Assembly (NCBI GenBank): GCA_021802595.1
Contig: JAJZRT010000071.1
Span: 1 to 10,804 of the forward strand
DNA: 10,804 nucleotides
Direction of reading: 5' to 3'
Origin: Pseudomonadota bacterium
GTDB taxonomy: Bacteria > Pseudomonadota > Gammaproteobacteria > Burkholderiales > Thiobacillaceae
The position numbers were made by a program, and so were the translations under genes. Positions 1 to 10,804 of this stretch are shown one piece after another. Each line of letters starts with the position of its first letter. Within the stretch, counting starts at the first letter, position 1. The notes below the pieces were generated by a model, which was not told the origin of the DNA, did not search any database, and saw only the letters and a list, made by a program, of their open reading frames with translations.

Positions 1-635
1 TCGCGCCGCTTGCGGATGAGTTCGAGGCTGTCCGTGCGCGTCTTCAGCGTGTCGTCGGCGAGCTGCGACTGCCCGGTGAGCGCGGTGAGCTGGTACCAGC
101 TGCTGGCGACGTCGCCGATGAGGCCGACGCGGAAGCTGCGGGCGGCCTCGTCGCTCGCCAGGTACTGTGCCCGGGCGGCCTCGCTCAGCGCGGCCACGCG
201 GCCCCAGAAGTCGAGCTCGAAGGCGGTGACGCCGAGGTTCACGTCGTTGCGGTGGGTCGTGCGCGCCACGCCGAAGCCGGTAAGATCGGCCGGTGTGTGG
301 GTACGGATGGTGTCCGCCTGCGCGGCCACCGTCGGGAAGCGGTCTGCGCGGGCGACGCCTGCCAGGGCACGTGCCTCCTCGACCCGTGCCAGCGCGATCC
401 GCATGTCGCGGTTGTTGGCGAGCGCCGCCTCGATCAGCGCATGCAGCGCCGGATCGGAAAAGTAGGCCGGCCAGTCGGGCACGGCGGAGGCGGTCGCCGG
501 CAGGTCCGCGGCAAAGGTCTGTGGAACGGGCGCGGCGGGCCGCTCATACGCGGGGATCAGTGAGCAGCCGCCCAGCAGGATGGCGGCAATCGCAGTGGCG
601 ACGACGGCGCCGGATGGGGGTTTGCGTTCAGTCAT
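1..635 (-). CDS. RND efflux outer-membrane factor, OprM/NodT-type lipoprotein (partial, C-terminus beyond window)
   Basis: This is the N-terminal 211 codons of an outer-membrane channel that docks onto the RND pump encoded upstream. Reading from ATG at 635 gives MTERKPPSGAVVATAIAAIL followed by LGGC-S, a lipoprotein signal with the acylated Cys at residue 24. Next comes S-L-I-P-A-Y-E-R-P-A-A-P-V-P, the hallmark start of mature NodT/OprM-family lipoproteins. Further in, the segments DPALHALIEAALANNRDMRI, ARVEEARALAGVARADRFPT and FELDFWGRVAALSEAARAQY match the TolC-like coiled-coil repeat of the family. The start is supported by GGGAGGAA about 6 nt upstream and by an 8-nt overlap (ATGACTGA) with the permease stop codon, implying translational coupling. 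Family members are about 460-490 residues, so slightly less than half is present. The substrate cannot be deduced. Confidence 0.93.
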   Translation of the reverse strand, partial: MTERKPPSGAVVATAIAAILLGGCSLIPAYERPAAPVPQTFAADLPATASAVPDWPAYFSDPALHALIEAALANNRDMRIALARVEEARALAGVARADRFPTVAAQADTIRTHTPADLTGFGVARTTHRNDVNLGVTAFELDFWGRVAALSEAARAQYLASDEAARSFRVGLIGDVASSWYQLTALTGQSQLADDTLKTRTDSLELIRKRR

Positions 636-3600
636 GTTTCGGTTCCTCCCGATGCCGGGTGGGAAAGAGCTTGCGGATCACCACGAAAAACACCGGCACG
701 AAGAAAACGGCGAGCACGGTCGCGGCGATCATCCCGCCGACCACGCCGGTGCCGACCGCGTGGCGGCTGGCTGCGCCGGCGCCGGTGGAGATGGCAAGCG
801 GCAGCACGCCGAGGATGAAGGCGAAGCTCGTCATCAGGATCGGCCGCAATCGCAGTCGGCATGCCTCCAGCGTGGCGGCCATCAGGTCCATGCCTTCCTC
901 GTGCAGCTGGCGGGCGAACTCGATGATGAGGATCGCGTTCTTGGCCGACAGGCCGATGATCGCGATCAGGCCGACCTTGAAGAACACGTCGTTCGGCAAA
1001 CCGCGCAGATAGACCGCGAGCACCGCGCCCAGGATGCCGAGCGGCACGATCAGGATCACCGAGAACGGGATCGCCCAGCTCTCGTACAGCGCCGCGAGCG
1101 CGAGGAACACCACCAGCAGCGACAGCGCGAACAGGACGGGCGCCTGCGAACCGGCGAGCCGTTCCTCGTACGAGGTGCCCGACCATTCGAAGCCGTAGCC
1201 CGGTGGCAGCTTTGCCGCGATCTCTTCCATCGCCTGCATCGCTTCGCCCGTGGAATGGCCGGGAGCAGGGGTGCCGGCGATCTTCATCGACGGGTTGCCG
1301 TTGTAGCGGTCGAGCTTGGGCAGGCCGACGATCCATTTCGGCCTCGCGATCTCGCCCAGCAGCACGATGCCGCCCGCGCGGTTGCGGATCGGCAGCTTCA
1401 GCAGATCCTCGGGCGTCTTGCGCAGGTCGGCGTCGGCCTGCATCTGCACCTTGAGGATGCGGCCGCTGCGCACGAAGTCGTTGACGTAGGATACGCCGAT
1501 GGCCGAGCTCAGGGTGTCGTTGAGATCGGCCATGTCGATCCCCAGCGCCTGCGCCTTGTCGCGGTCGATGTCGAGGAAGACCTGCGGGCCGGGCTCCTGG
1601 CCTTCCGGCCGCACGCCGGCCAGCCGCTTGTCCTGGCTCGCCACGCCGAGCACCATGTTGCGCACGTCCATCAGCGCGTTGCGGCCCTGGTCGCCGCGAT
1701 CGAGCAGACGGAAGTCGAAGCCACCGACCGCGCCGAGCTCGGGAATCGACGGCGGATTCACCGCGAACACCATCGCGTCCTTGATGCGCATGAAGGTGCC
1801 CATGGCGCGGCCGATCACGCCCTGCGCCGAGTGCTCGGGGCCGATGCGCTCGTCCCAGTCCTTGAGACGGGTGAACACGAGCGCGGCATTCTGCCCGCGG
1901 CCGAAGAAGGAGAAGCCGACCACCCCAATGACCCGCTCGACTTCGGGCTGCTTCAGGTAGAACTGCTCCACCTGCGACAGCACCTTGACCGTGCGTTCCT
2001 GCGTGGCGCCGCCGGGCAGTTGCACCATGGTGATGAAGTAGCCCTGGTCCTCGTCCGGCAGGAAACTGCCGGGGAGCTTGGTGAACAGCCAGCCGGCGGC
2101 AACGACGATGGCGAGATAGATCACCATCCAGCGGCCGCTGCGCGTGAGGATGCGTGCCGTAAGGCCGCGGTAGCGTGTGGTCACGCGGCCGAAGAAGCGG
2201 TTGAACCAGCGCTTCTCGTCCGCTTCGGCCTCGCCCGGCTTGAGCAGCGTGGCGCACATGGCGGGGGTGAGCGACAGCGCCATCAGCACCGAGAAGGCCA
2301 TGGTGAGGATCAGCGTGGCGGCAAACTGGCGGTAGATCGCGCCCACCGAGCCGCCGAAGAACAGCATCGGCATGAACACCGCCGACAGCACCACCGAAAT
2401 GCCGAGGATCGCCCCGATGATCTGGTCCATGGCCTTGAGCGTGGCCTGCAGCGGCGGCAGGTGCTCCTCGCGCATGATGCGTTCGACGTTCTCCACCACC
2501 ACGATGGCGTCGTCGACCAGCACGCCGATCGCCAGCACCATGGCAAACAGCGTCAGCACGTTGATCGAGAAGCCGAAGGCATAGAGCCCGGCGGTCGCGC
2601 CCGCCAGCGCGACCGGCACCACCACCGCGGGGATCAGCGTGGTGCGCCAGTGCCCGAGGAACACGTACATCACGATGAACACCAGGATCATCGCTTCGCC
2701 GAGGGTCTTCACCACTTCGAAGATCGAGATCTCGACGAAGCGCGAGGTGTCGTACGGCACGGCCCAGTCGACGCCCTGGGGGAAGAAACGGGCGAGCTCG
2801 CCCATGCGTGCCTTGACCGCCTTCGCCACGTCGAGGGCGTTGGCGCCGGGCGCGACGCGGATTGCGATCGCCGCGATCGGCTGCCCGTTCATGCGCGCGT
2901 AGCGCTCGTAGGTGTCGCCGCCCAGTTCGACGCGGGCGACGTCCTTGACCTTGACCGTCGCGCCGTTCGGCAGCGCACGCACGACGACGTTGCCGAACTC
3001 CTCCGGCGTGTTGAGGCGGCCGCGCGTGACGATCACCGCGTTCACCTGGGCGCCCGGTGCCGCCGGCGCCTGGTTCAGTTCGCCGGTGGCGAGTTGCACG
3101 TTCTGTGCCTGCAGGGCGCGCTTGACGTCGGCTGGTGTCAGGCCGTAGGCGGTGAGCTGCTCCGGCTTCAGCCAGATGCGCATGGAATACTCGCTGCCGA
3201 ACAGGATGGCCTCGCCGACGCCGGGTACCCGCAGCAGGGGATCGAGCACGTTGGCGGCCGCGTAGCTGCCGAGGTCGATGGCGTTGCGCTTGCCGTCCTT
3301 GGAATAGATGGCGACGAACATCAGGTAGTTGCGCTGCGGCTTCGTCACCGGCACGCCAAGCCGCCGCACGTCCTCGGGCAGTCGCGCCTCGACCCGCTTG
3401 TAGCGGTTCTGCGCTTCCACCGAGGAAATATCGACGTCGGTGCCGGGCTCGAAGGTGAGCGTCAGCGTGCCTGCGCCCAGCTCGGACGAGGCCTCCATGT
3501 AGAGGAGATGTTCGATGCCGTTCATCTCCTGCTCGATCAGCTTGATGACCGTGTCCTCGACCACCTGCGCGGAGGCACCGGGGTAGGTGACGTTGAACGC

Positions 3601-3729
3601 GATCTGCGGTGCGGCCACCGGCGGATACTGGGCGACCGGCAGGTTCTTCAGCGCGATGACGCCGCCGAGCAGGATGAGGATGGCGATGACCCACGCGAAG
3701 ATGGGCCGGTGGATGAAGAAACGTGCCAT
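628..3729 (-). CDS. RND multidrug efflux permease, HAE1 family (AcrB/MexB-like)
   Basis: This is the inner-membrane proton-driven pump subunit, 1033 residues, full length for the AcrB/MexB family. It opens with MARFFIHRPIFAWVIAILIL, the family's first transmembrane helix, and continues with LKNLPVAQYPPVAAPQI. The TM4 motif GVLVDDAIVVVENVERI places the proton-relay aspartates at D406 and D407, and TM10 has GLSAKNAILIIEFARQ with the partner lysine at K930. Drug-pocket-like aromatics are visible: F177 in LFGSEYSMRIW, and F606/F608/F609 in GFSFFGRGQN at the switch loop. All of this argues for a hydrophobic/amphiphilic drug exporter rather than a metal (HME) pump. It starts 1 nt after the adaptor stop and overlaps the outer-membrane factor by 8 nt. 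No inactivating change is seen. The exact substrates are unknown. Confidence 0.97.
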   Translation of the reverse strand: MARFFIHRPIFAWVIAILILLGGVIALKNLPVAQYPPVAAPQIAFNVTYPGASAQVVEDTVIKLIEQEMNGIEHLLYMEASSELGAGTLTLTFEPGTDVDISSVEAQNRYKRVEARLPEDVRRLGVPVTKPQRNYLMFVAIYSKDGKRNAIDLGSYAAANVLDPLLRVPGVGEAILFGSEYSMRIWLKPEQLTAYGLTPADVKRALQAQNVQLATGELNQAPAAPGAQVNAVIVTRGRLNTPEEFGNVVVRALPNGATVKVKDVARVELGGDTYERYARMNGQPIAAIAIRVAPGANALDVAKAVKARMGELARFFPQGVDWAVPYDTSRFVEISIFEVVKTLGEAMILVFIVMYVFLGHWRTTLIPAVVVPVALAGATAGLYAFGFSINVLTLFAMVLAIGVLVDDAIVVVENVERIMREEHLPPLQATLKAMDQIIGAILGISVVLSAVFMPMLFFGGSVGAIYRQFAATLILTMAFSVLMALSLTPAMCATLLKPGEAEADEKRWFNRFFGRVTTRYRGLTARILTRSGRWMVIYLAIVVAAGWLFTKLPGSFLPDEDQGYFITMVQLPGGATQERTVKVLSQVEQFYLKQPEVERVIGVVGFSFFGRGQNAALVFTRLKDWDERIGPEHSAQGVIGRAMGTFMRIKDAMVFAVNPPSIPELGAVGGFDFRLLDRGDQGRNALMDVRNMVLGVASQDKRLAGVRPEGQEPGPQVFLDIDRDKAQALGIDMADLNDTLSSAIGVSYVNDFVRSGRILKVQMQADADLRKTPEDLLKLPIRNRAGGIVLLGEIARPKWIVGLPKLDRYNGNPSMKIAGTPAPGHSTGEAMQAMEEIAAKLPPGYGFEWSGTSYEERLAGSQAPVLFALSLLVVFLALAALYESWAIPFSVILIVPLGILGAVLAVYLRGLPNDVFFKVGLIAIIGLSAKNAILIIEFARQLHEEGMDLMAATLEACRLRLRPILMTSFAFILGVLPLAISTGAGAASRHAVGTGVVGGMIAATVLAVFFVPVFFVVIRKLFPTRHREEPKHD

Positions 3730-3730
3730 G

Positions 3731-4828
3731 TCAGGCCCCCTGCTTCTGCAGAACCGGCTTCACCACCGAGCCCGGCTTGGCTTTCTGCACGCCGTCCACG
3801 ATGACGTTCTCGCCGTTCTTGAGGCCGTCCTCGATGACGAAGTCCGTGCCAGCCATCGCGCCGACCTTGACCGGGCGCTGCATCACCTTGTTGTCCGGAC
3901 CCACCAGCAGGACGAACTGGCCCTGCGGGCCGGACTGCACGGCGCGCTGCGGCACGGTGATCGCGTTGTCCTCGACGGCCTGCGGCAGCCGCACGCGGAC
4001 GAAGGTGCCGGGAAGCAGCAGGCGCTGCGGGTTGGGGAACTCCGCCTTCAGCGTGATCGCGCCGGTGCCGGGGTCGACGCTGAGGTCGCTGAAGAAGAGC
4101 TTGCCCTTGTGGGAATAGGTCTGGCCATTATCCAGAATGAGCTCCACGACGCGGCTATCGGTCGCCTTCAGCCGGCCGGCGGCCAGCGCGCTCCTCAGCC
4201 GCAGCACATCGGCGTTGGGCTGGGTGAACAGCACGTTGACCGGGTCGAGCTGGTCGATGGTCGCGAGCAGCGTGGCGTCGCCGTGGCCGACCAGGGCGCC
4301 CTCGGTCACCAGCGTGCGGCCGATGTGGCCGGAGATGGGCGCGGGCACCGTGGCGTTCTCCAGATCGAGGCGGGCGCGGGCGAGCTGCGCCTGCGACTGC
4401 TTCAGCGCGGCGCGGGCGAGATCGACTTCCTGCTGGCTGACCGCCTTGATCGGCAGCAACGATTCGACGCGTGCGAGATTGAGCTTCTTCACCTCGACGT
4501 CGGCTTCGGCGGCCTGGGCCGCGGTGCGGTAGGTGCGGTCATCCAGATGGAACAGCGGCTGACCGGCCTTCACGTCGCTGCCTTCCGTGAACAGGCGTTT
4601 CTCGACGATGCCCTCGACACGGGCCCGCACCTGCGCGGTACGCACCGCTTCCACCCGGCCGGGGAGTTCGCGCGTCAGCGTGGCGGCGGCGCTGCCCACC
4701 TGTACCACCGTGACCTCTGCCGGAGGCATGCCCCCGGGGGGACCGCCGGCGCCGCCAGGACCATTCTTGTCGCCGGGACCGCAGGCGGTGAGCAAGGGCA
4801 GAACGAGCAGCAGGGTCATGCGTTTCAT
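3731..4828 (-). CDS. RND efflux periplasmic adaptor lipoprotein (MFP, AcrA/MexA-like)
   Basis: This is the membrane-fusion protein bridging the RND permease and the outer-membrane channel, 365 residues. MKRMTLLLVLPLLTAC is a lipoprotein signal with the lipidated Cys at residue 16, followed by a Gly/Pro-rich linker to about residue 35. The first lipoyl half includes ARVEGIVEKRLFTEGSDVKA. An Ala/Gln-rich alpha-helical hairpin (about residues 95-155) is followed by the second lipoyl half, ATVPAPISGHIGRTLVTEGA. The beta-barrel and membrane-proximal segments include PNPQRLLLPGTFVRVRLP and a C-terminal VIVDGVQKAKPGS. I chose ATG at 4828 rather than an in-frame ATG 39 nt further upstream because AAGGA lies about 7 nt before it and the lipoprotein signal begins there. 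The start also overlaps the tetR stop as ATGA, giving coupling to the repressor. Confidence 0.96.
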   Translation of the reverse strand: MKRMTLLLVLPLLTACGPGDKNGPGGAGGPPGGMPPAEVTVVQVGSAAATLTRELPGRVEAVRTAQVRARVEGIVEKRLFTEGSDVKAGQPLFHLDDRTYRTAAQAAEADVEVKKLNLARVESLLPIKAVSQQEVDLARAALKQSQAQLARARLDLENATVPAPISGHIGRTLVTEGALVGHGDATLLATIDQLDPVNVLFTQPNADVLRLRSALAAGRLKATDSRVVELILDNGQTYSHKGKLFFSDLSVDPGTGAITLKAEFPNPQRLLLPGTFVRVRLPQAVEDNAITVPQRAVQSGPQGQFVLLVGPDNKVMQRPVKVGAMAGTDFVIEDGLKNGENVIVDGVQKAKPGSVVKPVLQKQGA

Positions 4829-5427
4829 GGTGTGTCCTTTTCGGGGGCAAAGGCGCGCAGGAAGCAATCCACCGCCCGCGCGGTTTTGGTGGAATCGAGC
4901 AATTCGGTCTGCAGATTGATGAGGCCGCGCAGTCGGTCGAGGTCCATCAGCATGGCGGTCAGCATCTCCGCCGCAAAATCGGGATCATCGTGCCGCAGCC
5001 GGCCCGCCTCCATGGCCTGCGCCAGATAATCGGCCAGACGCTTGCGGGTGGCCTGCGGTCCCTGGAGGAAAAACTGCCTGGCGAGATCGGGGAAGCGCGG
5101 GGCTTCGGCGACCATGGTGCGGAAGATCGCAATGCCGGTCGGGCTCAGCAGGCGCGTGCGGTAGGCGTCGCCAAAGGCCAGCAATGTGGTCCGCAGTTCG
5201 CCGTTGCCCTCGAGCGTGACCAGCACCGACTGGACGGAATGGCGCACCACTTCTCCGAACAGTTCGTCCTTGCTGTGGAAATGGTTGTACAGCGTCTGCC
5301 GTGCGACCTGCGCACGGGCGGCGATGCGGTCGATGCTGACCTGATAGCCTTCTTCGCGAAAGGCCTCGCAAGCCGCCTCGAGCAGGCGCTGGCGGGTGCA
5401 GGGGGACGTTTCGACGGCAGGGGTCAT
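4825..5427 (-). CDS. TetR-family transcriptional repressor of the efflux operon
   Basis: This is a 200-residue TetR/AcrR-type regulator. The helix-turn-helix lies at about residues 29-58 (VSIDRIAARAQVARQTLYNH, then FHSKDELF), a typical TetR recognition-helix signature. The ligand-binding half contains RTMVAEAPRFPDLARQFFLQ and resembles the AefR-like C-terminal domain found in many efflux-pump repressors. I chose ATG at 5427. A longer in-frame start at 5484 would add 19 hydrophobic residues unlike the family and would lie on top of the predicted promoter and operator. The Shine-Dalgarno before 5427 is weak. The 3' end overlaps the adaptor gene by 4 nt (ATGA), so repressor and pump probably share one mRNA. 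A negatively autoregulated, drug-inducible circuit is inferred from the architecture. The ligand is unknown. Confidence 0.93.
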   Translation of the reverse strand: MTPAVETSPCTRQRLLEAACEAFREEGYQVSIDRIAARAQVARQTLYNHFHSKDELFGEVVRHSVQSVLVTLEGNGELRTTLLAFGDAYRTRLLSPTGIAIFRTMVAEAPRFPDLARQFFLQGPQATRKRLADYLAQAMEAGRLRHDDPDFAAEMLTAMLMDLDRLRGLINLQTELLDSTKTARAVDCFLRAFAPEKDTP

Positions 5428-5445
5428 GTCAGCCCAGGCGAGAAG

Positions 5446-5461
5446 TAGACTGGACAGTCTA
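5446..5461. promoter_or_regulatory. Candidate TetR operator (16-bp inverted repeat)
   Basis: TAGACTG-GA-CAGTCTA is a perfect inverted repeat with 7-bp arms and a 2-nt centre. It sits 19 bp upstream of the tetR start codon. Its right end coincides with the predicted -10 hexamer on the minus strand, so a bound dimer would block RNA polymerase. Size and symmetry fit TetR-family operators. Binding is inferred from position only. Confidence 0.7.
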
Positions 5462-5484
5462 GTCGTGTGCCAAAATATGCGCAA
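5456..5484 (-). promoter_or_regulatory. Predicted sigma-70 promoter of the tetR-efflux operon
   Basis: On the minus strand TTGCGC (-35, 5479-5484) is followed by a 17-nt spacer and TAGACT (-10, 5456-5461). The hexamers match consensus at 3/6 and 4/6 positions, so the promoter is moderate to weak, but the spacing is ideal. The -10 lies inside the candidate TetR operator. The predicted start near 5449 gives a leader of about 20 nt. Confidence 0.5.
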
Positions 5485-5635: not shown

Positions 5636-5667
5636 CTAACTGTCCCCTAATTCTCGATCGCTATCTT
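5636..5667 (+). promoter_or_regulatory. Weak candidate promoter / response-regulator box upstream of the PepSY gene
   Basis: CTAAC and CTAAT occur as direct repeats at 5636 and 5647, 11 bp apart, which is roughly the spacing of OmpR-type half-sites. They are followed by a possible -10, TATCTT (5662-5667), with no convincing -35. That arrangement would suit an activator-dependent promoter for the PepSY gene, driven perhaps by the response regulator encoded downstream. This is speculative. Confidence 0.2.
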
Positions 5668-5673
5668 GACCCT

Positions 5674-5691
5674 CACGCGAATGTTCGCGTG
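5674..5691. promoter_or_regulatory. Perfect inverted repeat immediately before the PepSY Shine-Dalgarno
   Basis: CACGCGAA-TG-TTCGCGTG has 8-bp perfect arms and a 2-nt centre. It ends 4 nt before the AAGGAG ribosome binding site (5696-5701) of the PepSY gene. As DNA it could be a dimeric operator. As RNA it would place a stable hairpin next to the ribosome binding site and could modulate translation or protect the 5' end. Confidence 0.5.
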
Positions 5692-5709: not shown

Positions 5710-6045
5710 ATGAAACGCAAAGCCTATCTGGCGGCGCTTGCCGCCTTCTCCGCAGCAGCCGTGGTCGGCACCGCCGTCGCGGCCCAATCCTCGGGAAACG
5801 ACGCCCTGACGATTTCGAACGCGGGAATCAGCCTTATCCAGGCGGTCGGCGCCGCCGAACAGCATGTCGGTGGCAAGGCCATGCGCGCCGAGTACGAACG
5901 CCACAAGGGACAGGGCGTGTTCGACGTCGAAGTCGTCAAAGGGGCCACGGTGACGGACGTGAAGGTGGACGCCGGAAATGGCAAGGTCATTGAGGCGACC
6001 GCCGATGCGGCCGACCATGACGACGGCGGCGACCACGAAGACTGA
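5710..6045 (+). CDS. Secreted PepSY-domain protein
   Basis: This is a small periplasmic protein of 111 residues. Residues 1 to about 25 (MKRKAYLAALAAFSAAAVVG, then TAVA before the AQ site) form a Sec signal peptide with a likely AVA-AQ cleavage. The mature part contains ISLIQAVGAAEQHVGGKAMR, followed by a beta-rich segment FDVEVVKGATVTDVKVDAGN and GKVIEA, a single PepSY domain (PF03413-like). The C-terminus, ADAADHDDGGDHED, is strongly acidic with two His and could bind cations, although this is inference. I chose ATG at 5710 because AAGGAG lies 8 nt upstream and the signal peptide begins there; a longer in-frame start at 5689 lacks such support. The gene is followed by a terminator-like hairpin and then two membrane-protein genes and a two-component system on the same strand. 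Its precise role is unknown. Confidence 0.92.
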   Translation: MKRKAYLAALAAFSAAAVVGTAVAAQSSGNDALTISNAGISLIQAVGAAEQHVGGKAMRAEYERHKGQGVFDVEVVKGATVTDVKVDAGNGKVIEATADAADHDDGGDHED

Positions 6046-6050
6046 ACCTG

Positions 6051-6075
6051 GCCGGAGCCTGGCTCCGGCTTTTTT
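6051..6075 (+). terminator. Intrinsic terminator (or attenuator) after the PepSY gene
   Basis: GCCGGAGC (6051-6058), loop CTG, GCTCCGGC (6062-6069) and T6 (6070-6075) form a classic rho-independent terminator 5 nt past the PepSY stop codon. The next gene starts only 21 nt later, leaving no room for a separate promoter. It therefore probably acts as a partial terminator that sets a higher PepSY dose than downstream expression. Confidence 0.85.
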
Positions 6076-6096: not shown

Positions 6097-6882
6097 ATGA
6101 ACGACATGCCGGCGGCCACACGGCGGGACCTGCTCAACAAGGTGCCCGAGGCCATCCTGTTTTTCTGGATCATCAAGATCCTGGCCACGACGGTGGGCGA
6201 GACCGCCGCCGATTTCCTGAATTTCAATCTCAATTTCGGCCTGACCGGAACCTCCATCGTGATGGCCATCCTCCTGGCGGTTTCGTTGGCCGCCCAGTTG
6301 CGCGCCCGACGTTACGTGCCGTGGCTGTATTGGCTGACGGTCGTCCTGATCAGCGTCGTCGGCACCCTGATCACGGACAACCTGACCGATCACTTCGGCG
6401 TGCCGCTGGGCGTGACGACGGCCGCCTTCAGCCTGGCCCTGCTCGCAACGTTCGCGGTCTGGTACGCGAAGGAGCGGACGCTGTCGATCCACAGCATCCG
6501 TACGCGCAGCCGGGAACTTTACTACTGGGCTGCCATACTGTTCACCTTTGCACTGGGCACGGCAGCGGGGGACCTGTTCGCGGAGCGCCTGAATCTCGGG
6601 TACGCCCATTCGGCGCTGCTGTTCGGGGGGCTGATCGCGGCGGTGACCTTCGGCTACTACGTGCTCAGGGCCAACGCGGTGCTGGCGTTCTGGCTTGCCT
6701 ACATCCTGACCCGGCCGCTCGGTGCCTCATGCGGCGATTACCTGTCGCAGCCGGTGATGAATGGAGGACTGGGCCTGGGCACGGTGCAGACCAGCCTGCT
6801 GTTCCTGGCTGCCATTTCCGGCCTGGTGTTCTACCTTACCCTGACCCGCAGGGATTCGACCGAACAAAGGAGTGCGCAATGA
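6097..6882 (+). CDS. COG4705-like multi-span inner-membrane protein, copy 1 (four W-x9-G-x4-D repeats)
   Basis: This 261-residue, very hydrophobic protein resembles the uncharacterised COG4705 group of conserved membrane-anchored proteins. I see four internal repeats. They begin at W24, W79, W144 and W199, and each carries Gly 10 residues and Asp 15 residues after the Trp (G34/D39, G89/D94, G154/D159, G209/D214). Examples are FWIIKILATTVGETAADFL and FWLAYILTRPLGASCGDYL. Each repeat appears to be a pair of helices, so about eight membrane spans. Basic segments (RARRY, AKERT..RTRSRE, LTRR at the end) fall between repeats, suggesting N- and C-termini inside and the Asp near the outer face. The start has GGGGAG about 8 nt upstream. 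The stop overlaps the start of the paralogue (ATGA). Transport or channel function is plausible but unproven. Confidence 0.85.
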   Translation: MNDMPAATRRDLLNKVPEAILFFWIIKILATTVGETAADFLNFNLNFGLTGTSIVMAILLAVSLAAQLRARRYVPWLYWLTVVLISVVGTLITDNLTDHFGVPLGVTTAAFSLALLATFAVWYAKERTLSIHSIRTRSRELYYWAAILFTFALGTAAGDLFAERLNLGYAHSALLFGGLIAAVTFGYYVLRANAVLAFWLAYILTRPLGASCGDYLSQPVMNGGLGLGTVQTSLLFLAAISGLVFYLTLTRRDSTEQRSAQ

Positions 6883-7637
6883 ACCTCAAAACCGAAGAAG
6901 CCCTGAGCAAGGTTCCGCAGGTCACGCTCGTCTTCTGGATCATCAAGATCCTTGCGACCACGCTCGGGGAGACGGGCGGCGATGCACTGTCCATGTCGAT
7001 GAACCTCGGCTATCTGCTGAGCACCGGGATTTTCGCGGCCGTCTTCCTCGCCGCGGTGGTCGTCCAGATTCGTGCCAGGCGGTTCCACCCCGTGATCTAC
7101 TGGACCACGATCATCGCAACCACCACGGTCGGCACGACACTCGCCGACTTCGCCGACCGCTCGCTCGGCATCGGCTACGCCGGCGGCGCGATGCTGCTGT
7201 TCGGCCTGCTGATGGCGTCGCTGGCCATCTGGTACCGTACTCTGGGCTCCGTTTCGATCGACACCGTCGGATCGCCCAAATCCGAACTGTTCTACTGGAT
7301 GACAATCATGTTCTCGCAGACGCTCGGGACGGCTCTCGGCGACTGGACGGCCGACAGCGCCGGGCTCGGCTACGAAGGCGGGGCGCTCGTGTTTGGCGTG
7401 CTGCTGGCGCTGATCGCTGCGGCATACTACAGGGCGAAGATCTCGCATACCGTGCTGTTCTGGGCGGCGTTCATCCTGACCCGCCCGCTGGGCGCCGTGG
7501 TGGGCGATCTGCTGGACAAGCCCGTCCACGCCGGCGGGCTGGACCTGAGCCGGTTCGGCGCCTCGGCCGTGTTGCTGTCGGCGATCGTGCTGTTCGTCGC
7601 GGTCTTCCGGCAACGCCCGGCCCGGCTGAGCCACTGA
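6879..7637 (+). CDS. COG4705-like multi-span inner-membrane protein, copy 2 (paralogue of the preceding gene)
   Basis: This 252-residue membrane protein is clearly homologous to the gene before it: KVPxxxxxFWIIKILATTxG at the N-terminus and FWxxxILTRPLGAxxGDxL in the last repeat are shared. The same four-fold signature occurs at W20/G30/D35, W75/G85/D90, W140/G150/D155 and W195/G205/D210. The inter-repeat spacing of 55, 65 and 55 residues is identical to that of copy 1. About eight membrane helices are expected. I chose ATG at 6879 because AAAGGAG (6866-6872) precedes it, it overlaps the upstream stop as ATGA, and homology with copy 1 begins there. Coupled translation and shared fold suggest that the two proteins form a hetero-complex, although this is inference. 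The next gene, a response regulator, begins 28 nt downstream. Confidence 0.85.
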   Translation: MNLKTEEALSKVPQVTLVFWIIKILATTLGETGGDALSMSMNLGYLLSTGIFAAVFLAAVVVQIRARRFHPVIYWTTIIATTTVGTTLADFADRSLGIGYAGGAMLLFGLLMASLAIWYRTLGSVSIDTVGSPKSELFYWMTIMFSQTLGTALGDWTADSAGLGYEGGALVFGVLLALIAAAYYRAKISHTVLFWAAFILTRPLGAVVGDLLDKPVHAGGLDLSRFGASAVLLSAIVLFVAVFRQRPARLSH

Positions 7638-7665: not shown

Positions 7666-8280
7666 ATGCGCATCTTGCTGGTTGAAGACGACCCCATGAT
7701 CGGCGAGGCGGTTGCCACGGCCTTGAAGGATGCCGCCTACGCCGTCGACTGGGTGCGCGACGGCAGGACGGCGTCGCATGCCCTCGATGCGGCCGAGCAT
7801 CAGGCCGTCCTGCTCGATCTCGGTCTGCCGGGGCGTGATGGCCTGGAGGTGCTGCGCCGCCTGCGCGAGGCGGACCGCATCCAGGGGCTCGATCTGGGCG
7901 CCGACGATTATCTGGTCAAGCCGTTCGACGTCAACGAGCTGCTTGCACGCATGCGCGCCGTGATCCGCCGCCAGGGCGGCCAGGCGGCGCCGATCCTCGG
8001 CAATGGTCGCGTCAGCCTCGATCCGGCCACCCGCGAGGCGGCCTGCGGCGACCGCATGGCGACCCTCAGCGCGCGTGAGTTTGCGCTTCTGCAGGCCCTG
8101 TTGCTGCGGCCTGGCGCGATTCTGACGCGGGCCGAACTGGAAGAACGGATCTACGGCTGGAACGAGGAGGTCGAGAGCAACGCCGTGGATTTCCTGATCC
8201 ACGGCGTGCGCCGCAAGCTCGGCCAGGACGTGATCAAGAACGTGCGCGGCGCCGCCTGGCGGGTGGACAAGGCATCGTGA
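7666..8280 (+). CDS. OmpR/QseB-type response regulator with an internally shortened receiver domain
   Basis: This is a 204-residue DNA-binding response regulator. The receiver domain starts MRILLVEDDPMIGEAV (acidic pocket D8/D9), has the phospho-acceptor D51 in AVLLDLGLPGRDG, and has K85 in GLDLGADDYLVKPF. A winged-helix domain follows (about residues 112-204), with ATLSAREFALLQALLLRPGA and NAVDFLIHGVRRKLG. The family normally has about 219-225 residues with roughly 50 residues between the Asp and Lys. Here there are 34. The missing stretch lies between LRRLREA and DRIQGLDLGADDY, where relatives have a P-V-L-x-L-T-A-R-D-A segment: strand beta-4 with the conserved Thr/Ser switch residue. The reading frame is intact. 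Signalling by phosphorylation may be altered or lost. GAAAGGGGAGC supports the start. The kinase gene overlaps it by 4 nt. Confidence 0.93.
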   Translation: MRILLVEDDPMIGEAVATALKDAAYAVDWVRDGRTASHALDAAEHQAVLLDLGLPGRDGLEVLRRLREADRIQGLDLGADDYLVKPFDVNELLARMRAVIRRQGGQAAPILGNGRVSLDPATREAACGDRMATLSAREFALLQALLLRPGAILTRAELEERIYGWNEEVESNAVDFLIHGVRRKLGQDVIKNVRGAAWRVDKAS

Positions 8281-9569
8281 GCCGTTCGCTGCAGCGCCAC
8301 CTGTCGAAGATGCTGGCCGGGGCCGTGCTGGCCAGCGGCGTGATCGCGACCGCGGTCGCGTTCTACTTCGCCTACGCCGAGGCGCAGGAATTCCAGGACG
8401 ACGCCCTGCGGCAGATCGCCGCGCTGAGCGCGGGCGGCGCATCGGAAATCCGGCAGCTCGATGCAGCCAGCAAGGCCGTCGAAGACCCCGAATCGAGAAT
8501 CCGCGTGGTCCGTCTTCCCACAGGGCCGCGCCCGGCGTGGCTGCCGCCGGACATCGCGCCGGGTTTCCACACGCTCGCCGGAAGAGAGGGGCAGGAGGCC
8601 ATGCGGGCGTTCGTCCGCGACACGAGAGAGGGGGGGCGCCTCGTCGTTGCGCAGTCGACCGACAACCGCAACGAGATCGCGCTCAACAGCGCGCTGCGCA
8701 CGCTGATTCCGCTGTTGCTGCTGCTGCCGCTGCTGATCGGGCTGATCGCGTTCATCGTGCGCGGCGAATTCGCGCCCATCCGGCGGCTTGCAGAGGCGCT
8801 TGACCGGCAGGCGGCCGAACGCCCGACGTTGCTGCCCCGGCATGATCTACCGGACGAAATCGCGCCTTTCGTCGACGCCATCAACCGGCTCCTTGTGCGC
8901 GTCGACGCGATGATCGCCGAGCAGCGCCGGTTCGTCGCCGATGCCGCGCATGAGCTGCGCACGCCGCTCACGGCGCTCTCGCTCCAGGCGCAGAACCTCG
9001 CTCAGGCCGCGTCGCCGGCCGACATGCGCGAGCGCCTGGTTCCTCTCCAGGCGGGAATCGAGCGCGCCCGCAGGCTGACGGTGCAGCTGCTCGACCTGGC
9101 GCGGCTCCAGGCCAGCGAAGCGGCATGGACCGACGTTGACGTGCAGGCATTCGCACGCGAACTGATCGCCGAATTCCATCCCGTGGCGGAGGCCCGGGGA
9201 ATCGATCTGGGCATGGAGGACGCCGGCCTGAAGCCGATGCGGTCCGACCCCAAGGCGCTCGGCCTGATCGTCCGCAATGCGCTGGAAAACGCCCTCAAGT
9301 ACACGCCGCGTGGCGGCGAGGTGACGCTCAGCCTGCGGCGCGACGGCAACCAGGCCTTGATCGAGGTGGCCGACACCGGCCCGGGCATCCCGGAGGCGGA
9401 GCTGCGGCACGCCTTCGATGCATTCCATCGTTTATCGAACGAGGGGGAAGGCAGCGGTCTGGGCCTGGCGATTGCGCGGGAGGCCGCGATCGGGCTGGGG
9501 GGGGCGGTGATATTGAGGAACCGCAAGGACCGGACGGGGCTCGTGTTTCGCTATGCGCAACCTTTGTAA
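8277..9569 (+). CDS. Sensor histidine kinase (QseC/PmrB-like), partner of the preceding regulator
   Basis: This is a 430-residue membrane kinase. One transmembrane helix at about residues 12-34 and a second at about 142-162 (LIPLLLLLPLLIGLIAFIV) flank a periplasmic sensor region of roughly 105 residues with no motif I recognise. A HAMP-like linker leads to the dimerisation/phospho-acceptor helix RRFVADAAHELRTPLTALSL with H225. The ATPase domain has the N-box LIVRNALENALKYTP (N334/N338), the G1 box VADTGPGIP (D366), the F-box AFDAFHRL and the G2 box GSGLGLAIA. All catalytic motifs look intact. It starts with GTG at 8277, overlapping the regulator stop (GTGA), which is typical of coupled two-component genes. 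The signal it senses is unknown; the flanking PepSY and membrane proteins are candidate partners or targets. Confidence 0.95.
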   Translation: MSRSLQRHLSKMLAGAVLASGVIATAVAFYFAYAEAQEFQDDALRQIAALSAGGASEIRQLDAASKAVEDPESRIRVVRLPTGPRPAWLPPDIAPGFHTLAGREGQEAMRAFVRDTREGGRLVVAQSTDNRNEIALNSALRTLIPLLLLLPLLIGLIAFIVRGEFAPIRRLAEALDRQAAERPTLLPRHDLPDEIAPFVDAINRLLVRVDAMIAEQRRFVADAAHELRTPLTALSLQAQNLAQAASPADMRERLVPLQAGIERARRLTVQLLDLARLQASEAAWTDVDVQAFARELIAEFHPVAEARGIDLGMEDAGLKPMRSDPKALGLIVRNALENALKYTPRGGEVTLSLRRDGNQALIEVADTGPGIPEAELRHAFDAFHRLSNEGEGSGLGLAIAREAAIGLGGAVILRNRKDRTGLVFRYAQPL

Positions 9570-9980: not shown

Positions 9981-10057
<77 letters not shown>

Positions 10058-10114: not shown

Positions 10115-10144
10115 GTTATAAGGAAACGTCTTCAACGCGGTCAA
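10115..10144 (-). promoter_or_regulatory. Predicted sigma-70 promoter of tRNA-Pro
   Basis: On the minus strand TTGACC (-35, 10139-10144) and TATAAC (-10, 10115-10120) are separated by 18 nt, and each matches consensus at 5 of 6 positions. The -35 overlaps the ispB TGA stop (10141-10143). Transcription would start near 10108, about 50 nt before the mature tRNA 5' end, so RNase P would remove a short leader. Confidence 0.65.
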
Positions 10145-10804
10145 AAACTGCGGTCAACCGCGAAAGCCGCTAATTGTAGCAAAGCTGATTTGGATTTTGA
10201 ATCCGGTAATGCAGAAATTGCATCATTTGCTGTCTGGATTTCCCGTTGCGCGACTTCGCGCGTGTAGTGCAGGGCGCGCGTATCCTTGATGGCGGCGAGC
10301 ACGCTCTGGAATTCCGTCAGGCCACCGTGCTCGATCGCCTGGCGGATGCTGGCCGCCTGCTCGGCGCTGCCGTGCTTCATCGCGTAGAGCAGCGGCAGCG
10401 TGGGCTTGCCTTCGGCGAGGTCGTCGCCGATGTTCTTGCCGGTCTTGAGGAAGTCGCCGGAATAATCGAGAACGTCGTCGATCAGCTGGAATGCGGTGCC
10501 CAGATGCATGCCGTAGCGCGCCAGCGCGTCTTTCTCTGCTTCGTTGCCGCCGCCGATGACGGCGCCGAGCCGGCCCGCAGCCTCGAACAGCTTGGCGGTC
10601 TTGTAGCGGATCACGCGCAGGTAGTTGTCCTCGTCGATGTCCGGGTCGTGGCAGTTCAGCAACTGCAACACCTCGCCTTCGGCGATGGTGTTGGTGGCGT
10701 CCGACAGGATGCGCATGACTTCCATGTTGTCGACCGCCACCATCATCTGGAACGCCCGCGAATACAGGAAGTCGCCGACCAGCACGCTGGCGGCGTTGCC
10801 GAAC
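10141..10804 (-). CDS. ispB: Octaprenyl (polyprenyl) diphosphate synthase, IspB-type (partial, N-terminus beyond window)
   Basis: This is the C-terminal 220 residues of a trans-isoprenyl diphosphate synthase that elongates farnesyl-PP with isopentenyl-PP to make the ubiquinone side chain. Reading from the window edge gives FGNAASVLVGDFLYSRAFQM, then AEGEVLQLLNCHDPDIDEDN and YLRVIRYKTAKLFEAAGRLG. The second Asp-rich motif is QLIDDVLDYSGD, followed by GKNIGDDLAEGKPTLPLLYA. All of these are characteristic of IspB. The first DDxxD motif lies outside the window. An apparent GTG start at 10785 is only an internal Val codon of the conserved SVLVGDF motif, so the frame is kept open to the edge. The full protein should be about 320 residues. 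The stop codon overlaps the tRNA-Pro promoter. Octaprenyl chain length is inferred from family and likely lineage. Confidence 0.93.
   Translation of the reverse strand, partial: FGNAASVLVGDFLYSRAFQMMVAVDNMEVMRILSDATNTIAEGEVLQLLNCHDPDIDEDNYLRVIRYKTAKLFEAAGRLGAVIGGGNEAEKDALARYGMHLGTAFQLIDDVLDYSGDFLKTGKNIGDDLAEGKPTLPLLYAMKHGSAEQAASIRQAIEHGGLTEFQSVLAAIKDTRALHYTREVAQREIQTANDAISALPDSKSKSALLQLAAFAVDRSF

Follow-up and report, generated by a model that had tools for sequence, protein, structure and literature searches.

Four-fold tryptophan-glycine-aspartate repeats in two adjacent DUF347 membrane proteins of an mmf-like cassette

Introduction

The Pfam family PF03988 (DUF347, "Repeat of Unknown Function") comprises proteins in which a helix pair with a conserved tryptophan is repeated four times. 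The available excerpt of one study calls DUF347 a 'new potential metal transporter', proposes it as a lead exporter and mentions three operons induced by lead that contain UppP and DUF347 genes, the organism not being plain from the excerpt (PMC4531530).

Among the closest described systems is the mmf cassette of Tn6048 (mmfA-B-C1-D-C2-R-S), which we read from plasmid pHB44. According to the accessible part of a 2025 paper, mmf of Cupriavidus metallidurans, a model for metal resistance whose laboratory strain CH34 has three mmf copies, is up-regulated by Pb and Zn and its function is 'still unknown', and C. gilardii NOV2-1, which carries mmf, grew the same with Cd, Co or Zn as the type strain, which does not (PMC12029693). 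In the portions available of another paper, mmfC1 and mmfC2 are labelled putative MFS permeases, and pHB44 gave cells a growth advantage over cured cells when no Fe or V was added and a disadvantage at 5 and 50 uM, a comparison of the whole plasmid from which the authors infer import; with pHB44 the MIC of bacitracin also rose from 40 to 300 ug/ml, and plasmid pMBUI8, described with mmfA and mmfB only, likewise raised bacitracin resistance (PMC4914505). Among the literature matches listed, which were available in part, none was a direct test, a transport assay or a structure of a DUF347 protein.

Results

An mmf-like cassette with two DUF347 genes

The window, by which we mean the whole stretch of DNA analysed (10,804 nucleotides of contig JAJZRT010000071.1), contains five genes on the forward strand with best matches to mmfA, mmfC1, mmfC2, mmfR and mmfS of pHB44, in the same order:

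5710..6045, + strand: PepSY protein, MmfA-like (PF03413, E 7.4e-9; 63% identity to MmfA over 67 aa)
6097..6882, + strand: P1, MmfC1-like DUF347 protein of 261 aa with 8 predicted transmembrane helices (PF03988, MmfC1 match at 58% identity, AF2 model)
6879..7637, + strand: P2, MmfC2-like DUF347 protein of 252 aa with 8 predicted transmembrane helices (PF03988, MmfC2 match at 74% identity, AF2 model)
7666..8280, + strand: OmpR-type response regulator, MmfR-like, 204 aa (profile match; 62% identity to MmfR)
8277..9569, + strand: sensor histidine kinase, MmfS-like (profile match; 41% identity to MmfS)

Translation of P2 begins with the ATG at position 6879, so that its gene shares 4 bases with the end of the P1 gene. 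Homologues of mmfB, which encodes a PAP2 protein, and of mmfD, which encodes a protein without Pfam match (L081:7813-8262), were not found within 4.5 kb of P1 and P2 in the window (phmmer, E 1e-5), and the cassette is therefore referred to as mmf-like only. No transposase was found among the nine window proteins scanned, as compared with the mmf cassette of Tn6048. The best matches of the regulator were to QseB/PmrA models and those of the kinase to the NCBIfam models QseC and cztS/silS/copS, all below cut-off. The regulator lacks 48 bases in frame, corresponding to 16 receiver residues including the VTAR stretch, that are present in loci L001-L003, with a junction near 7872/7873; this gap reflects a genuine deletion or else an error of assembly, and complete copies occur in relatives.

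Genes for an RND pump, a membrane fusion protein and a TetR-type regulator (628-5484, - strand) are divergent from the cassette. The other side of the window holds a tRNA-Pro (cgg) gene (9981-10057, - strand) and a polyprenyl synthetase reading frame (10141-10785, - strand).

The repeat and its conservation

The original prediction had noted eight copies of a W-x9-G-x4-D repeat, with tryptophans at 24, 79, 144 and 199 in P1 and at 20, 75, 140 and 195 in P2, both with 55/65/55 spacing. A pattern scan of the whole proteins recovered the same eight copies and none beyond four in each protein:

6166..6213, + strand: P1 repeat 1, W24-G34-D39 (also K27, E35)
6331..6378, + strand: P1 repeat 2, W79-G89-D94
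6526..6573, + strand: P1 repeat 3, W144-G154-D159
6691..6738, + strand: P1 repeat 4, W199-G209-D214 (also T205-R206-P207)
6936..6983, + strand: P2 repeat 1, W20-G30-D35 (also K23, E31)
7101..7148, + strand: P2 repeat 2, W75-G85-D90
7296..7343, + strand: P2 repeat 3, W140-G150-D155
7461..7508, + strand: P2 repeat 4, W195-G205-D210 (also T201-R202-P203)

A chance origin of the motif was rejected, 20,000 residue shuffles per protein having yielded mean counts of 0.013 and 0.020 for P1 and P2 and a maximum of 2. PF03988 matched four stretches in P1 (E 1.9e-65) and four in P2 (E 3.4e-66), with whole-protein scores of 217.4 and 219.7 bits against a curated cut-off of 28.2 bits. Together with the helix pairs in the models and the tryptophans in the alignment, these stretches correspond to the Pfam description, and we found no difference between P1 or P2 and ordinary members of the family. 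The repeat is thus already catalogued, as DUF347, with its function unexplained. No NCBIfam model matched P1 or P2 to E 0.01, and the database names of their relatives include 'uncharacterized membrane-anchored protein' and 'COG4705 family protein'.

To describe conservation, we used an alignment (A1) of 140 rows, P1 and P2 included, chosen below 83% identity from a pool of 458 sequences and with all rows other than P2 being 30-83% identical to P2; a second alignment (A2) contained 86 rows. All 140 rows of A1 match PF03988. The four glycines, the four aspartates and three of the tryptophans were invariant, and the first tryptophan was present in 139 rows with one gap, as expected if the W, G and D positions are conserved among homologues in the way the original prediction supposed. 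In the pool, which protein hits entered only through 5-residue words in common with the query, 457 sequences had four motifs and 1 had three. Four surveys with PF03988, each including a centre genome that carries DUF347 by construction, placed 19/150, 11/198, 8/117 and 4/101 over the cut-off. They yielded 48 distinct full-length genes (partial genes left out), 45 with four motifs, 2 with five and 1 with three, the last with serine in place of glycine in repeat 2; 47 of the 48 thus keep at least four motifs, as do 41 of the 42 that remain after setting aside 6 duplicates of pool sequences. Recruitment may have favoured the tryptophans, since three of the six peptide patterns used to gather the genome loci include one from the motif; no pattern includes a motif glycine or aspartate. 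Exactly four repeats were found in 14 of the 19 over-cut-off genomes in the survey of 150, so that one DUF347 protein suffices in many genomes. DUF347 genes are present in several bacterial phyla, as seen in the genome surveys and the tree, and P1 matched 256 of 72,556 plasmid records.

The DUF347 proteins of five loci (L041, L047, L059, L061 and L072) have about 150-165 extra C-terminal residues, with no Pfam domain to E 0.01, and L049:6870-7663 holds a DUF347 gene broken into two overlapping reading frames, with a longer one next to it.

Beyond the shared motif, each repeat has a signature of its own in the 140 rows: F-W-x2-K and T-x2-G-E-x3-D in repeat 1, Y-W and G-T in repeats 2 and 3, and F-W-x5-T-R-P-x-G-A in repeat 4. 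E31, K23 and T201-R202-P203 of P2 are kept throughout, and because of these separate signatures K23, E31 and R202 break the four-fold pattern. At a threshold of 80% of the rows, no cysteine or histidine position is conserved.

Topology and predicted structure

AlphaFold predicted 8 confident membrane helices for both P1 (AF2 pLDDT 91.3, pTM 0.88) and P2 (AF2 pLDDT 92.5, pTM 0.89). The first helices of the four pairs start at residues 21, 75, 137 and 194 in P1 and at 17, 71, 133 and 190 in P2, and the motif had rightly been placed at the start of each helix pair, its tryptophan following the start of the first helix by 3-8 residues in all four predicted pairs. Over the 140 rows, the mean number of lysines and arginines was 2.37 for the N-terminus, 2.39, 2.15 and 1.13 for loops 2-3, 4-5 and 6-7, and 2.25 for the C-terminus, whereas loops 1-2, 3-4, 5-6 and 7-8 had means of 0.16, 0.38, 0.28 and 0.79. 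Since the charges of alternate loops are this uneven, the statement that all four repeats have the same orientation holds, and the loop charges also put the motif aspartates near the outer helix end, in line with the predicted location of acidic residues near the outer face. In the first helix of each repeat, sequence and model would thus place the tryptophan near the cytoplasmic end, the glycine in the middle and the aspartate near the periplasmic end. The probable packing is an inner ring formed by the four conserved helices and surrounded by the four variable ones. This ring geometry of the repeats receives weak indirect support from residue coupling, computed from an effective 104 sequences and not ring-like throughout, and from the shift evidence.

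Structure and fold searches identified no solved structural relative of P1 or P2. Four parallel two-helix units with a possible four-fold arrangement recall the tetrameric 2-TM channels of the KcsA type and the single-chain TrkH and KtrB. In P-loop channels of the KcsA/TrkH type, a pore helix and a selectivity filter separate the two helices of every unit. The within-pair linkers of P2 (41-44, 96-98, 161-163 and 214-224 in the AlphaFold model) are 4, 3, 3 and 11 residues long, which in the model is too short for these elements, and membership in this class was rejected; nor was a fold of this type among the fold-search matches, none of which was significant. Proteins of the major facilitator superfamily have 12 helices in 3-helix units, whereas the AlphaFold helices and loop charges give P1 and P2 8 helices in parallel 2-helix repeats, and the fold comparison with this superfamily yielded a Z in the range that the tool calls common.

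History of the repeats and of the gene pair

To compare the repeats with each other, we used profile-profile alignments, which yielded E values of 4e-8 to 2e-5 for five of the six pairs; the sixth, repeats 2 and 4, reached 7.5e-3, and the best E value in 20 column-shuffled controls was 0.036. The comparison supports homology of the four repeats. Two rounds of internal duplication, as originally proposed, are not the favoured order: the least alike pairs were 1/3 and 2/4, which speaks against a half-protein having simply been doubled; such a doubling stays conceivable given the 55/65/55 spacing and the match of the two halves to each other (E 1.9e-7).

P1 and P2 are 42% identical to each other, and each is closer to its counterpart on pHB44, P1 to MmfC1 (58%) and P2 to MmfC2 (74%). 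In a tree of 109 rows, for which the program warned of long branches meeting at the P1/P2 split, P2 and MmfC2 fell in a clade of 24 rows with support of 100/100, with P1 and MmfC1 outside. The tree and the identities indicate that the split predates the lineage of the window, and a recent duplication was rejected on these grounds.

Gene neighbourhoods

We compared 81 loci, consisting of the window and 80 kept of 92 confirmed relatives, many of them short. Homologues within 4.5 kb of the DUF347 gene were found for mmfA in 23 loci, mmfD in 15 and mmfB in 9, and for mmfR in 49 and mmfS in 48, the last two counts being given without a background rate for what are large families of regulators and kinases. 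The order A-C1-C2-R-S was observed in 8 of the 81 loci, the window among these, and in 20 a C1-type gene had no other mmf homologue within 4.5 kb, some of these being contig ends.

The PAP2 protein encoded by mmfB raises the alternative that DUF347 proteins handle a lipid carrier or envelope component, for example in undecaprenyl phosphate recycling under envelope stress, with the buried charges binding the phosphate head or coupling protons. The UppP genes in the three lead-induced operons (PMC4531530, excerpt) and the increased bacitracin MIC with pHB44 (PMC4914505, in part) agree with this, as do the best scores of the regulator and kinase to QseB/PmrA and QseC models, albeit below cut-offs. 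Yet 72 of the 81 loci, the window included and many on short contigs, have no mmfB homologue within 4.5 kb; pMBUI8, with mmfA and mmfB only, raises bacitracin resistance too, by the same partly available source; and five buried acids with two bases would make a poor phosphate site. We consider a role in lipid-carrier handling unlikely.

A direct repeat upstream of the cassette

The region around the PepSY gene contains four candidate control elements:

5636..5652, + strand: operator-like direct repeat CTAAC-N6-CTAATT with an 11-base period, before the PepSY gene
5662..5667, + strand: -10-like TATCTT with constant spacing to the direct repeat (alignment of 23 leaders)
5674..5691, + strand: leader hairpin or DNA dyad CACGCG-N6-CGCGTG, between the -10 and the ribosome-binding site
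6050..6070, + strand: terminator-like stem-loop with T run, between the PepSY gene and P1 (terminator scan)

The TATCTT hexamer is absent from the listing of a sigma-70 consensus scan. In the 23 leaders, two-sided changes were observed in five of the six pairs of the dyad and 87.7% of cells were paired; no Rfam family matched 5674-5691 at gathering score. The terminator scan of the region yielded four sites, three of them overlapping at 6050-6070, with 2.5 expected by chance, and the stem-loop might favour expression of PepSY over the DUF347 genes.

Our search for the direct repeat began with the copy in the window, after which strict patterns matched 18 of 24 PepSY promoters. The pattern was widened to CT[AC]A-N7-CTAA[GT]T after inspection of the six misses and before the following count, by which each of the 23 loci that have a PepSY gene carries the repeat no more than 600 bases upstream. 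There were 45 occurrences in 905,444 bases from 82 loci, and 37 of these, across 34 loci, precede a PepSY or DUF347 gene on the same strand by at most 600 bases. Outside this count, pHB44 has one repeat before mmfA (L081, 5870), which reads CTCA/CTAAGT as compared with CTAA/CTAATT in the window. In all nine of nine genomes the direct repeat occurred once, with the cassette promoter sequence, against 3 in total in a reversed control; as the genomes had been picked for having the strict repeat, what the count tells us is only that they lack further sites. The repeat combined with the -10 (TAT) yielded one site per genome at zero mismatches, and with up to 2 mismatches there were 9 weaker sites versus 28 in the reversed control. 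The adjacent two-component system would accordingly in the main serve the cassette operon. The half-site and 11-base period resemble the boxes of PmrA/QseB-type regulators; the link between repeat and regulator rests on proximity and shape, and the regulator of the window is missing part of its receiver domain.

Such a restriction to the cassette is also a feature of autoregulated sensing modules, and with a kinase homologue nearby in 48 of the 81 loci it could mean that P1 and P2 serve the histidine kinase, as a sensor in the membrane or as an accessory, and are not a transporter. This is very improbable: the 20 loci with a solitary C1-type gene, some of them at contig ends, count against it, and the invariant buried charge suggests a substrate path.

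Discussion

Our preferred reading, to which we give slightly less than an even chance, is that P1 and P2 are a parallel-repeat cation transporter or channel of the MmfC1/MmfC2 type, active in metal or envelope stress and under the control of an MmfR/MmfS-like switch at 5636-5652. Besides the DUF347 scores, the conserved residues and the mmf matches, it draws on the loop topology and on sequence entropy. The two would be inner-membrane proteins of four parallel two-helix repeats, in which the buried aspartates and the symmetry-breaking E31, K23 and R202 of P2 most likely form a cation path. They may act as a transporter or channel under such stress, and the two-component system most likely switches expression by binding at the direct repeat observed at 5636-5652. 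The lack of conserved cysteine or histidine argues for a hard cation or protons, and is odd for a Pb- or Zn-selective site.

The direction of transport is suggested differently by the two lines of published data, since the induction of mmf points to relief and the growth of pHB44 cells to uptake. Import of Fe, V or another essential metal by P1 and P2, as argued for pHB44, would account for cells that outgrow cured ones without added Fe or V and fall behind at 5 or 50 uM, and the poorer growth does not fit relief of Fe or V (PMC4914505, in the parts available). The comparison was of the whole plasmid, without an mmfC mutant in those parts, and the induction by zinc and lead is easier to reconcile with relief than with uptake (PMC12029693, in part), so that we regard import as improbable. 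For the cation transporter or channel that we prefer, relief would be the favoured direction given this induction, although metal induction of mmf is not the same as transport of that metal, and the equal growth of C. gilardii NOV2-1 and the type strain with Cd, Co or Zn also counts against the preferred reading (PMC12029693).

A more specific possibility is an undescribed transporter or channel fold, namely a single-chain parallel pseudo-tetramer of two-helix repeats with its four invariant aspartates in a ring close to the outer face, in which the lysine and glutamate of repeat 1 and the arginine of repeat 4 break the symmetry and thereby select and couple the cation, under a private two-component switch of one operon. 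We think this doubtful, though less so than any of the alternatives above. If the four aspartates truly form a ring, it would be another route to a four-fold membrane path from one chain. What gives the finding its value is the promoter, together with an anatomy so clear-cut that it lends itself to mutagenesis: the conserved residues, the topology and the promoter enable specific tests, aimed at four aspartates, one glutamate, one lysine, one arginine and one promoter.
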